Both the position numbers and the translations under genes were made by a program. From the NCBI GenBank assembly GCA_004299845.1, contig CP036201.1, positions 2,728,001 to 2,792,000 of the forward strand: a stretch of DNA of 64,000 nucleotides, written 5' to 3'. The notes beneath the pieces are model-generated. The model ran no database searches and was not told the origin of the DNA. It worked only from the letters and a program-made list of their open reading frames with translations. Origin of the DNA: Verrucomicrobia bacterium S94 (lineage in GTDB: Bacteria > Verrucomicrobiota > Kiritimatiellia > Kiritimatiellales > Pontiellaceae). Shown piece by piece: positions 39,007 to 44,629 of this stretch. Every line of letters starts with the position of its first letter. The first letter of the stretch is position 1.

Positions 39007-39036
39007 GGCGTTTCCATTTCCTGGAAACGCCTTTTT
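39007..39036 (+). terminator. Rho-independent terminator
   Basis: GGCGTTTCC, loop ATTTCCT, GGAAACGCC and TTTTT: a 9-bp perfect stem with a uridine tract. It follows the orphan gene tail and touches the stop codon of the convergent HEAT-repeat gene. Confidence 0.88.
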
Positions 39037-40057
39037 ACTCAACCAGACTTCGTTTGCTCAATGACGTGCTCGCAATCTTTGAAATACGCTTATCACGGGA
39101 AACTGAGAGGGATTCTAGAAGGGCGATATCTTCTTCGGAACCGATTTCGCCGAGAGTGGCGATGGCGGCACAGCGAAGTATGGTTATGTCCGAATTATGA
39201 GCCAGGTCGCGGGCGGTTTCCAATACATGTATATTTTTGCGTTCACCGCAAAGACGAATGGCAGTAACTCGGTTCGCCAAAGAAGCTTGTTCATCCTGAG
39301 CCAAGTTGAGCATCGCGGCATTAATGTCACCCTTATCAAACTCATCATGATCACGAGAAAGCTTATCGAGCGCCAACAGCGCCGCCCCTGCATTCGAATT
39401 GTCGCGTTCCCCCAGCGCATCCCAGAGTGTGTCCTGAATTATCTGCAGTTCTTGTGGAGGGACAGCGGCCTCGCTGTCCGCGGTTGATGAGACCAGCGCC
39501 TCTCGGCTCCCAGTTTCAGACTCAAAACTTAAAACTTCAGACTGTCTTTCATAGAACGGCTGCATGAACTGGATACAATAATTGCGCCACGTATCATCCT
39601 GATTGGGGTTGTTATATCCATTCACCAGCAATTCACCCATACCATCCGGAAGTTCCTTCTGACGAAGAAGAATTTCATAGGCATCATTTCGAATGGAGTT
39701 GTAAAAAAGATTCCCCAACTTTGCATCTTCCGGCATTGGCTCATTTAGGAAATCCATCAGAACTGCAATATCATTGGTCGACATCTCCTGCCCAAGTTTC
39801 CGCATGGCTTCAAGCCTAGTCTGGTAGCCGGATTTCGGATCAACCACAGTAAATACCGGATGGTTCTCACTCAAACCAGACTCGATTTCCGATTCAGCCA
39901 TTGGAACTTCCTGGGCGTGCTGCGGACGCGAAACTTCTATCGCAGACATGTTAATCTGTGACTCAGGCTGATCAGCCTGAGTCACAGGACTTCTCGACAA
40001 AACATATACAAGTCCGAATACACCAATAACTGCAACTACAAGAATAATTTTTTTCAT
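39035..40057 (-). CDS. Membrane-anchored HEAT-repeat protein, function unknown
   Basis: A 340-residue protein. It begins with an uncleaved-looking signal anchor (KKIILVVAVIGVFGLVYVLS) and then has a polar, glutamate-rich linker. Residues about 225-335 contain HEAT/PBS-lyase-like repeats: LANRVTAIRLCGERKNIHVL, HNSDITILRCAAIATLGEIG, SEEDIALLESLSVSRDKRIS. Such repeats usually mediate protein binding. Its ATG overlaps the stop of a RAYT remnant by 4 bp, and the upstream GGGGTCAG REP-like motif falls within its leader, so its original promoter may have been displaced by the mobile DNA. No catalytic role is apparent. Confidence 0.8.
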   Translation of the reverse strand: MKKIILVVAVIGVFGLVYVLSRSPVTQADQPESQINMSAIEVSRPQHAQEVPMAESEIESGLSENHPVFTVVDPKSGYQTRLEAMRKLGQEMSTNDIAVLMDFLNEPMPEDAKLGNLFYNSIRNDAYEILLRQKELPDGMGELLVNGYNNPNQDDTWRNYCIQFMQPFYERQSEVLSFESETGSREALVSSTADSEAAVPPQELQIIQDTLWDALGERDNSNAGAALLALDKLSRDHDEFDKGDINAAMLNLAQDEQASLANRVTAIRLCGERKNIHVLETARDLAHNSDITILRCAAIATLGEIGSEEDIALLESLSVSRDKRISKIASTSLSKRSLVE

Positions 40058-40341
40058 GAGGGGTCAGTCCTATGATTTAATGTTTTTATAATTCGATCCA
40101 ATGCATCCCCGCCGAAATCACCCGATTCCATACGCTTCAGAAATGTAGCAAAATTCGTTGCCTTACCCATCCTTAAACGCTCTTTAATCCACTGATTTTT
40201 CACACACGTATTCCGGCGCACCAGCCAAGCCACCGCATACTTCTCCGGACCGTTCTTTTTCAGCGCATCCAGATCGGAATCGGCCAATCCGAGAACCTCA
40301 AGCCCAAGCTTAACCAGCCGTTCCGCCTCCGCCTCATCACG
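40054..40341 (-). pseudogene. RAYT transposase remnant (C-terminal part)
   Basis: The frame reads DEAEAERLVKLGLEVLGLAD, then KNGPEKYAVAWLVRRNTCVK and NQWIKERLRMGKATNFATFL. The intact RAYT at 40886 has DEVEAERLLQQGIECLQLDE, then KALLAWLIRRHTVVSNAWIA and ERLHMGRADCLSRY in the same place, so this is a diverged copy. It begins exactly where the 407-bp inverted repeat begins, which cut away its N-terminal two thirds. It ends at a GGGGTCAG motif like the other copies. Confidence 0.75.
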
Positions 40342-40746
40342 TAGGAAAGGGGTCAGTCCCGTAATTTAGTAACTTCTCTCAACCGTTCACGCTTCTTTAT
40401 TAACAGTTCATCCTCAGTCTCATCAATCCGTCTAGGGTATCTCGACAGACAATCCGCCCTCCCCATATGCAGCCGCTCCGCAATCCAGGCATTGGAAACC
40501 ACCGTGTGCCTCCTGATCAGCCAGGCCAGCAGCGCCTTCTCATCCGCCCCTTCCGCATCCCGTACAGAGACTGCTCATCAAGCTGAAGGCACTCAATACC
40601 CTGTTGCAACAACCGCTCCGCTTCAACTTCATCATGCTGCCTCACCTCTTCCCCGCAAAATGATTCCCGTTTCCCTGAAAGCCGGTCAATTCTTTCAAGC
40701 ATATCAGCTTTGAACTGATCCGCCCCGAAGCACCATCCTCTGCGGA
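40340..40746 (-). repeat. Left arm of a 407-bp inverted duplication (RAYT 3' half)
   Basis: Reverse complement of 41508-41915. I found one difference: a four-base run at 40547-40550 against five at 41704-41708, which breaks the reading frame in this arm. It carries the C-terminal 130 codons of the RAYT gene plus its 3' REP-like motif. The two arms flank the 5' half of the intact RAYT gene, so the segment between them could invert or extrude a cruciform. Confidence 0.88.
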
Positions 40747-40750
40747 AAAA

Positions 40751-40856
40751 GGGGTCAGAAAAAGGGGTCAGGAAAAAGGGGTCAGTCCCGTAATCTAGTA
40801 AAATGACTTTTCCGAAAAAGGGGTCAGTCCCGTAATCGAGTAAAATGACTTTTCCG
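40751..40856 (+). repeat. REP-like motif array upstream of RAYT
   Basis: Four copies of GGGGTCAG. The last two are complete 42-bp tandem units, GGGGTCAGTCCCGTAATC-AGTAAAATGACTTTTCCG, differing at one base. The core GGGGTCAGTCCC can fold on itself, as REP sequences do. This motif recurs in reverse at 41895-41992 and near 40060 and 40349, always at RAYT ends. Confidence 0.8.
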
Positions 40857-40885
40857 ACCGTGCTGTTTTCGGTATAAAACTCTCC

Positions 40886-41902
40886 ATGCCAAGGAAACCT
40901 AGAATTGAATATGAAGGGGCCATCTATCACGTAATGAGCCGGGGAAATCACCAGGAGGCAATTTACAAAGACGATAAGGACTGCGAAGTATTTTTAGATA
41001 CGCTGGGTGAGGCGTGTGACCGCACGGGCTGGCGGATACACGCCTTCGTTCTTATGGGGAATCATTACCACCTTTTACTGGAGACTCCTGAAGCGAATTT
41101 GGTGGCTGGAATGAAGTGGCTGCAGGGGACGTATACGCAGCGTTTTAACAGTCGGCATAAGTTTTGGGGACATCTATTGCAGGGGCGTTACAAGGCGCTG
41201 CTGGTGGATGGGACGGGCGGAGACTATTTTTTGACGGTAAGTAATTATATCCATCTTAATCCGGTGCGGGTGAAAGGATTTGACCCGCGGAAGAGAACTC
41301 TGGCGGATTACCGCTGGAGCAGTTTCCCGCTTTATGGACGGCCTTCAAAACGCCCAGACTGGCTTTGTGTGGATCGTACGTTGGGCTGCATGGAACTTGA
41401 GGATTCGGTGGCCGGCCGACGGAACTACCGGAGAATTATGAATAAACGGGTTGCTGAAGTCGCCGCAAGTGACAATCCCGTGGAGTTTGATTCGCAATGG
41501 AACCATATCCGCAGAGGATGGTGCTTCGGGGCGGATCAGTTCAAAGCTGATATGCTTGAAAGAATTGACCGGCTTTCAGGGAAACGGGAATCATTTTGCG
41601 GGGAAGAGGTGAGGCAGCATGATGAAGTTGAAGCGGAGCGGTTGTTGCAACAGGGTATTGAGTGCCTTCAGCTTGATGAGCAGTCTCTGTACGGGATGCG
41701 GAAGGGGGCGGATGAGAAGGCGCTGCTGGCCTGGCTGATCAGGAGGCACACGGTGGTTTCCAATGCCTGGATTGCGGAGCGGCTGCATATGGGGAGGGCG
41801 GATTGTCTGTCGAGATACCCTAGACGGATTGATGAGACTGAGGATGAACTGTTAATAAAGAAGCGTGAACGGTTGAGAGAAGTTACTAAATTACGGGACT
41901 GA
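40886..41902 (+). CDS. REP-associated tyrosine transposase (RAYT, Y1 HUH family)
   Basis: A 338-residue protein with the Y1_Tnp domain in its first 150 residues. The HUH pair is His60 and His62 in VLMGNHYHLLLETPE, and the catalytic tyrosine is Tyr102 in GHLLQGRYKALLVD. RAYTs nick single-stranded REP hairpins and are usually domesticated and single-copy. The C-terminal half (from about residue 180: GWCFGADQFKADMLERIDRL) is a helical DNA-binding extension with DnaA-like character. Its gene is bracketed by GGGGTCAGTCCC arrays that are probably its substrates. The reading frame is intact. Confidence 0.92.
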   Translation: MPRKPRIEYEGAIYHVMSRGNHQEAIYKDDKDCEVFLDTLGEACDRTGWRIHAFVLMGNHYHLLLETPEANLVAGMKWLQGTYTQRFNSRHKFWGHLLQGRYKALLVDGTGGDYFLTVSNYIHLNPVRVKGFDPRKRTLADYRWSSFPLYGRPSKRPDWLCVDRTLGCMELEDSVAGRRNYRRIMNKRVAEVAASDNPVEFDSQWNHIRRGWCFGADQFKADMLERIDRLSGKRESFCGEEVRQHDEVEAERLLQQGIECLQLDEQSLYGMRKGADEKALLAWLIRRHTVVSNAWIAERLHMGRADCLSRYPRRIDETEDELLIKKRERLREVTKLRD

Positions 41903-41915
41903 CCCCTTTCCTACG
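41508..41915 (+). repeat. Right arm of the inverted duplication, within RAYT
   Basis: Positions 41508-41915 match 40340-40746 in inverted orientation over their whole length apart from one extra G in a G run. This arm is the functional 3' end of the RAYT gene plus the first 3' motif. The near identity implies a recent duplication or ongoing gene conversion. Confidence 0.88.
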
Positions 41916-41992
41916 GGACTGACCCCTTTCCCGTGACCCCTTTCCCTGACCCCTTTCCCTGACCTTTCCCCGGGACTGACCCCTTTCCCAGT
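41895..41992 (-). repeat. REP-like motif array downstream of RAYT
   Basis: GGGACTGACCCCTTTCC appears three times in full (41895, 41915 and about 41972) with shortened GTGACCCCTTTCC and CTGACCCCTTTCC units between. It is in inverse orientation to the array on the 5' side, giving the RAYT gene mirror-image flanks. Confidence 0.8.
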
Positions 41993-43292: not shown

Positions 43293-43358
43293 TGTTTTGC
43301 CTCAGATGGAATTGGACAAAACCTTCGTTCAAGTTAGATAGTACGAATGGAGGACAGA

Positions 43359-43664
43359 ATGCCAAAGAGAAGACACTTCACGGCCGAACAGAAGGCCGAC
43401 ATTGTTATGAGTCACCTGGTCGACCAGGTGCCGGTTTCCGATATCTGTGTAAAGCATGATATTCAGCCGAATATGTTTTACCGATGGCAGGCCGAATTCA
43501 GAGCGAATGCCTCTGCCGCCTTCGAGAAAACGGACACGCGTAAACAGAAGGCCCGGCGAAGACAGACCGAGCAGCTCGAAGTGCAATTGCAGAAGAAAGA
43601 CAGCATTATTGCCTATGTGACAACAGAGCTGATGAAATCAAAAAAAAAGAATGGGGAGATTTAA
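43359..43664 (+). CDS. IS3 family transposase OrfA
   Basis: A 101-residue DNA-binding subunit from the ATG at MPKRRHFTAEQKADIVMSHL, preceded by GGAGG. A transposase_8 helix-turn-helix (VSDICVKHDIQPNMFYRWQA) and a leucine-zipper-like coiled coil (EQLEVQLQKKDSIIAYVTTE) are present. Near its end the AAAAAAAAAG run allows -1 frameshifting to make the OrfAB fusion transposase. OrfA alone usually represses transposition. Confidence 0.9.
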   Translation: MPKRRHFTAEQKADIVMSHLVDQVPVSDICVKHDIQPNMFYRWQAEFRANASAAFEKTDTRKQKARRRQTEQLEVQLQKKDSIIAYVTTELMKSKKKNGEI

Positions 43665-43672
43665 AAGGTTGG

Positions 43673-44629
43673 GTGGAGCCGGATCTGCGGGATCGAATTA
43701 TTGATGACGTATTTGAAATCCGGGAACAGACCGGGCTGGCCCTGAGCTGGCTTCTTGCTAAAGCATCTCTTGGTAAAAGCCGGTTTTATGACTGGCGTAA
43801 ACGATACGGAAAACTCAATGAGCACAATGGTAAAATACCTCGGGACAACTGGTTGCTGGCGAATGAAACCGAAAAGATTGTTAACTGGTATAAAGAGCAT
43901 CCGTTTGATGGATATCGCAGGTGCTGCTATATGATGATGGATGCGGATGTTGTTGCGGTCAGTCCGGCCACGGTGTACAGAGTCCTTTCAAAAGCAGGGA
44001 TGCTGAACAATCGGAACGTACGCCCGTCCAGGAAGGGAACCGGCTTCACTCAGCCATTAAAAGCCCATGCTCATTGGCATATTGATATTTCCTACATCAA
44101 CTGTGGCGGCACCTTTTATTATCTGTGCACGGTACTCGATGGATTCAGCCGGTTGATCGTTCACTATGAGCTCAAGGAACAGATGAAAGAGGCCGACGTA
44201 GAGCTGATTCTTCAGCGTGCGAGAGAAAAATATCCTGATGCGGCTCCGAGAATTATAAGTGATAACGGCCCGCAGTTCATCGCCCGGGATTTCAAGGAGT
44301 TTATTCGTCTGACAGGCATGACGCATGTGAGAACCAGCCCGTATTATCCGCAGAGCAACGGTAAGCTTGAGCGTTATCATAAAAGTCTGAAAACCGAATG
44401 CATTCGTCCCAGAAGTGCAGAAACTCAGGATGAAGCTCGTCGGAATATTGATGAATATGTTACCTATTACAACACGATCCGCTTACACAGTTCGCTTGGA
44501 TTTATCACACCCGGGCAAATGCTGGATGGGAAGCAGAAAGAAATATTTGAAGAGCGGGAAATGAAGTTATCGAAAGCCCGGGAAGAGCGCCGAATAAAGC
44601 GGAGCAAAATCCGGGAGTTAACCAACTAA
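43673..44629 (+). CDS. IS3 family transposase OrfB (integrase core)
   Basis: A 318-residue DDE recombinase. An HTH_21 region (SLGKSRFYDWRKRYGKLNEH, then HPFDGYRRCCYMM) precedes the rve core with Asp138 in HWHIDISYI, Asp197 in IISDNGPQFIARDF and Glu233 in SNGKLERYHKSLK, giving the D-D-35-E spacing of IS3. It is normally produced as a fusion with OrfA by -1 frameshifting 25-33 bp upstream of this ATG. The gene is intact, so the element may be active. Confidence 0.93.
   Translation: MEPDLRDRIIDDVFEIREQTGLALSWLLAKASLGKSRFYDWRKRYGKLNEHNGKIPRDNWLLANETEKIVNWYKEHPFDGYRRCCYMMMDADVVAVSPATVYRVLSKAGMLNNRNVRPSRKGTGFTQPLKAHAHWHIDISYINCGGTFYYLCTVLDGFSRLIVHYELKEQMKEADVELILQRAREKYPDAAPRIISDNGPQFIARDFKEFIRLTGMTHVRTSPYYPQSNGKLERYHKSLKTECIRPRSAETQDEARRNIDEYVTYYNTIRLHSSLGFITPGQMLDGKQKEIFEEREMKLSKAREERRIKRSKIRELTN

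Follow-up and report, generated by a model that had tools for sequence, protein, structure and literature searches.

The locus and its protein

The window analysed here is a stretch of 64,000 nucleotides (nt) from Verrucomicrobia bacterium S94, the genome of which (4,107,983 bp) is assembled as a single contig; its near named relatives are Pontiella and other Pontiellaceae and Kiritimatiellales. The part under study contains a HEAT-repeat gene, a gene of the TIRYT type bounded by terminal inverted repeats (TIRs), and a number of truncated copies of the ends of such elements. The names TIRYT (the gene) and TIRtron (the unit), and the TIR consensus GGGGWSAS, are those of Di Nocera et al. 2013 (PMC3733652), in which TIRtrons are treated as relatives of REPtrons; the text of Quentin et al. 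2018 (PMC6006769) equates TIRYT with TnpA_REP subclass 2.1, which carries a C-terminal HTH or Bac_DnaA_C-like extension. The following features were mapped (L- and G-numbers below denote loci and genomes, respectively):

39035..40057, minus strand: HEAT-repeat gene, with its start codon 2 bp from the right end of F2
40054..40341, minus strand: F2, an older 3' fragment of another TIRYT, with the right-end motif at 40060 distal
40337..40746, minus strand: left arm (F1), a right-end-anchored copy comprising codons 208-338, the right TIR and ~9 bp beyond, motif distal
40747..40816, plus strand: left-end ladder of truncated left-end copies, with motifs at 40751, 40764 and 40778 and unit lengths of 13, 14 and 42
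40817..40843, plus strand: left terminal inverted repeat, AAAGGGGTCAGTCCCGTAATCGAGTAA
40886..41902, plus strand: TIRYT gene, 338 aa, with its TGA stop inside the right TIR
41508..41918, plus strand: right arm, covering the 3' portion of the intact gene together with the right end; F1 derives from this sequence
41883..41909, minus strand: right terminal inverted repeat, overlapping the gene end
41910..41990, minus strand: right-end ladder, TACGGGACTGACCCCTTTCC, CGTGACCCCTTTCC, CTGACCCCTTTCC, CTGACCTTTCC and CCGGGACTGACCCCTTTCC, with a common outer edge and differing inner ends

The 338-aa protein matches PF01797 (Y1_Tnp) with an E-value of 7e-11, which confirms the RAYT-family assignment made in an earlier, sequence-only reading of this DNA. 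Residues 1-165 form the Y1/HUH nuclease, in which H60, H62 and Y121 are invariant in 37 sequences. In the AlphaFold model (pLDDT 86.7), residues 1-209 align to the REP transposase 4er8 (Z 15.8), and residues 248-338 align to the DnaA DNA-binding domain 3pvp (Z 11.2, rmsd 3.0, 90 residues). A Pfam sequence search with the C-terminal region gave no match at E 0.01, and a PDB sequence search using the family alignment returned no match. On sequence and predicted structure taken together, the protein is a TIRYT, that is, a Y1 HUH nuclease with a C-terminus resembling DnaA domain IV.

The motif GGGGTCAGTCCC is found at 40349, 40778 and 40820 on the plus strand and at 41895, 41915 and 41972 on the minus strand, in opposed orientations around the gene, with a one-mismatch copy at 40060 (plus strand); seven motif matches were seen at the locus versus a mean of 0.35 in shuffles. 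This motif is the start of the TIRs, which are 27 bp long, identical at 25/27 positions, and contain GGGGTCAG. The opposed repeats are the terminal inverted repeats and truncated copies of them. The sequence-only reading had described these opposed arrays correctly, but had interpreted them as REP arrays. This interpretation is ruled out by the copy number, because the exact 12-mer occurs six times in the whole genome and always within the locus, and by the lack of a stable hairpin: the motif folds as single-stranded DNA with -1.9 kcal/mol (z -1.0), compared to -11.3 (z -3.6) for an E. coli REP sequence that served as a yardstick. The sequence before the left TIR is GAAAA, not GTAG. It should be noted that the absence of the exact motif elsewhere in the genome, which the sequence-only reading had named as a ground for refutation, speaks against its dispersal but does not refute local activity. 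The locus is a TIRtron by its arrangement, with terminal inverted repeats of ~25 bp on either side of the TIRYT gene.

The inverted duplication of the 3' part of the gene, previously put at 407 bp, is real and measures 410/411 nt, with arms at 40337-40746 and 41508-41918 that flank the 5' half of the RAYT-like gene; the duplicated part consists of the last 131 codons and the right end, which over the stop codon reads ...TTACGGGAC TGA CCCC. Apart from one substitution at the extreme outer edge and one G (GGGG vs GGGGG, near 40547 / 41705), the left arm being short of one G in its G5 run, the arms are identical. Recombination between them could invert the 761-bp segment, and in the flipped isomer the missing G of the left arm would cut the protein to 283 aa from 338. 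In the two closest relatives (L055 and L057) the gene points toward a HEAT homologue, whereas at the S94 locus it points away; this orientation fits arm inversion, but F2 intervenes, and inversion is therefore not claimed. F2 lies beyond the left arm, beside the start codon of the HEAT-repeat gene, with an amino acid identity of 45-67% to the C-termini of other TIRYTs and 44% to the main gene. An IS3-like two-ORF element that adjoins the locus (43347-44629) has no end ladder, this being one control only. As a separate observation, the coding sequence of the HEAT-repeat gene contains a perfect 32-bp palindrome of two 16-nt arms, spacer-free, at 39956-39987.

End-anchored copies in the family and in the genome

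The family survey comprised 83 distinct loci, which were selected for resemblance to a single protein and lack phylogenetic independence. Most of them have TIRs of ~20-32 bp, in which the outer GGGGTCAG is common, and the inner half is locus-specific yet matches between both ends. The left TIR is ~57-68 bp upstream of the start codon in most loci, and the right TIR contains the TGA stop at the same offset in 28/67 loci. Similarity of the inner TIR correlates with C-terminal similarity when the N-terminal part is held (partial r 0.20, 0/2000 permutations), and with N-terminal similarity when the C-terminal part is held (partial r 0.12, P 0.0065), both correlations being modest and confounded by relatedness.

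Extra motifs up to 1 kb outside the ends are oriented motif-distal in 83 cases versus 4 opposite, with ~3.7 per class expected by chance; counted by locus, the ratio is 41 versus 3 (p=1.6e-9). Each ladder unit is a prefix of the element end, between 6 nt and more than 800 nt long, and a short leader separates it from the next motif. The start point of the copies is mostly ~5-6 nt (up to ~13) outside GGGTC, and the leader is commonly 4-7 nt, its length not being strictly constant (2-13 nt, with ~13 in L125). Long units include those of 221 bp (L035), 194 (L047), 197 (L070), 331 (L151) and 425 bp at a right end (L018), as well as three tandem 836-bp copies in IMCC26134 (L125); clearly inverted long copies are rare, namely the S94 arm and a mini-element in L057. 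Of the duplications that contain element sequence and measure 50 bp or more, 13/14 have one end at a terminus, although not all of the counted events are independent, some loci contributing more than one; one duplication, in L027, is not anchored at the TIR itself. Random placement (200,000 trials) gave a mean of 0.4 terminus-anchored duplications and a maximum of 6, and never 13; a stricter null, under which the outer breakpoint was free to lie at any position beyond the gene, gave about 10^-14.6. The product of probabilities from a first phase test was set aside because short-leader units had been preselected, which biased it, and the unbiased placement test was used.

Copies are also found apart from their parents. 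At 3464006 the S94 genome has a left-end copy of 755 bp (99.6%); in addition, 621664-624692 and 2895771-2898800 (L023, L024) share a segment of 3,029 bp (99.7%) that ends at a right TIR. An orphan ladder at 2946.3-2946.6 kb of the same genome consists of four left-end units and no gene; some of its units run past the left-end fragment into host DNA, so that the template was local and a gene in cis is unnecessary. In G005, a 393-bp right-end fragment (L141) on another contig has its own ladder, whereas the parent has none. The dispersed one-ended repeats of G015 (L173, L174, L175, L176) have the same TIR start; three copies begin 5-6 nt outside GGGTC and have inner ends at 129-160 nt, and one copy is only ~25 bp. 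Between the siblings L130 and L131, the genes of which are 97.6% identical, the left end differs by one unit of 16 bp and the right end by one unit of 19 bp, and this difference of one unit per end points to recent growth in place.

Comparison at the sequence level shows that the copies have one near-fixed boundary and one free boundary, with the motif distal, that both ends are competent, and that a gene in cis is unnecessary. The left arm of the S94 locus is, by the same comparison, one such right-end copy, sited beyond the left end.

A candidate mechanism and its alternatives

The ladders, the arm and the remote fragments probably have a single kind of source, in which the TIRYT nicks outside the motif, and the end is partly recopied and rejoined. 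In such a process the TIRYT, as a Y1 HUH nuclease, would nick at an outer point just beyond GGGTC; the freed 3' end would prime, or the displaced 5' strand would carry, a partial copy of the sequence inside the motif; and the enzyme would rejoin the motif strand, through its 5' end, to the newly formed 3' end, so that a truncated copy is added on the outer side. The inverted arm would result if joining took place at the opposite TIR, and the remote fragments if it took place at a distant target. The 410-bp arm would then be a right-end copy joined at the left end, the sole requirement being that the two TIRs are interchangeable. Recent end-processing by such an enzyme, as proposed in the sequence-only reading, fits the family-wide pattern of end-anchored copies, so that this reading holds for the gene family, the opposed motifs, the duplication and the recent end-processing, but fails in the REP identity.

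An origin independent of the enzyme, through template switching or replication slippage at the G-rich ends, would produce tandem duplications, among which selection keeps those with an intact gene. We consider this unlikely, although most copies are adjacent and in direct orientation, and some joints have short microhomology (AAAA at one remote junction, L141) or short filler bases (L074), features expected of repair or template switching. Slippage predicts an arbitrary phase; however, one breakpoint is constant outside the motif even in units of 190-836 bp, and the stricter null has already conceded a free outer breakpoint. Furthermore, 4/5 of the inspected AAGGGGTCAG sites that are not TIRYT-linked have no ladder (the fifth resembles a decayed TIR with two units), and slippage leaves the remote copies and the orphan ladder unexplained.

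The remaining alternatives concern the arms. Homologous recombination between TIR copies or duplicated segments could have reshuffled the locus, with perfect arms resulting from gene conversion or repeated inversion; the essentially identical arms and the gene direction, reversed relative to L055 and L057 as arm inversion would give, are in line with this. It is nevertheless an improbable account, because recombination presupposes repeats, cannot make copies in which one end is fixed while the other is unconstrained, and would have to act on ladder units that are too short. A role of the 761-bp centre as a functional invertible switch, altering the TIRYT C-terminus, is very improbable: the 410-bp arms do flank the 5' half, and the flipped isomer (283 aa vs 338) would lose most of the DnaA-like domain, but the difference between the isomers is one homopolymer G, a possible sequencing error, and the other loci examined have no comparable inverted pair around an intact gene. 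Misassembly of the arms, the doubt that accompanied the sequence-only reading, is hardly credible. Fold-back chimeric reads can yield inverted repeats; however, the genome is a single contig, the arms have asymmetric boundaries (just one side bears a ladder) and a one-base difference, and many independent assemblies show the pattern again, among them that of IMCC26134, which is titled a complete genome.

Extending the nick-and-recopy reading to the family, it is possible, on the evidence of the copies, that TIRYTs are active one-ended copy-and-join enzymes with a nick at a fixed distance outside the TIR and repeated end recopying and rejoining, in which the DnaA-like domain would read the locus-specific inner TIR. 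If true, the copy-and-join activity would keep both ends alike and seed repeat families, and would thus be a candidate origin of REP-like repeats. The nested copies in this sister family bear on the way in which RAYTs generate and disseminate repeats: they point to a single nick site and to a step of copying and rejoining, which would explain why the two TIRs of one locus are alike and the TIRs of separate loci are unlike.

Relation to known systems

TIRtrons are already known, and the S94-type loci share with them, and with TnpA_REP subclass 2.1, the Y1 gene, the flanking GGGGWSAS TIRs, and the HTH or partly DnaA_C-like C-terminus. According to the accessible text of the two papers (PMC3733652, PMC6006769), TIRs may build small repeat families, and TIR dimers and clusters are reported; unlike in the loci described here, this text reports no ladders or one-ended truncated copies, and neither a fixed outer start nor inverted 3' copies. 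The end-copying pattern appears to be undescribed in the literature searched, which consisted of papers outside subscription, and a literature search for GGGGTCAG together with transposase found no relevant title. REPtrons, i.e., RAYTs with REPs and BIMEs (Nunvar 2010, PMC2817692; Bertels and Rainey 2011, PMC3116915), involve the same enzyme family, with inverted repeats that flank the gene and co-vary with it, and local repeat multiplication near the gene has been proposed for them; RAYT genes are described in these papers as single-copy and non-mobile. The S94 locus differs from a REPtron in that it has no GTAG-headed stem-loop, the motif of its main gene is not dispersed as REPs are, and gene fragments are copied together with the ends.

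IS200/IS605 insertion sequences share the Y1 HUH catalytic domain and, by prediction for the S94 protein, the single-strand chemistry of the family. Those elements have no TIRs, and they transpose as a whole, between subterminal hairpins, whereas the S94 locus has clear TIRs and no stable hairpin, and S94-type copies are mostly truncated. In the one-ended rolling-circle transposition of IS91 and Helitrons, which also use an HUH nuclease, one end is fixed and the other is variable; S94-type elements differ from these in belonging to the Y1 family, in having two equivalent inverted ends, and in copies that are stacked beside the parent.

Several minor observations were made on the same loci. In an uncontrolled count, 35/58 loci have, within 60 bp of the right TIR, a position at which an ORF of 60 codons or more could start, and the right TIR is often a few bp from a downstream start codon (right ends of L032, L037, L051, L078, L089 and others). 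The inner ends of independent right-end fragments are near codons 197-209, close to an invariant GW, at the S94 locus, in L141, in L018, in the second RAYT and at the contig edge G015:C178; a cryptic GGGG end near these codons was rejected as the cause of the shared inner ends because its strand orientation misfits. The 3,029-bp segment of L023 and L024 contains RHS-type sequence and an intact second TIRYT, and one of its copies has a left-end ladder joined to RHS sequence. The mini-element L057:3050-3290 has a TIR at each end and the last ~60 TIRYT codons between them, and resembles an internal-deletion derivative.
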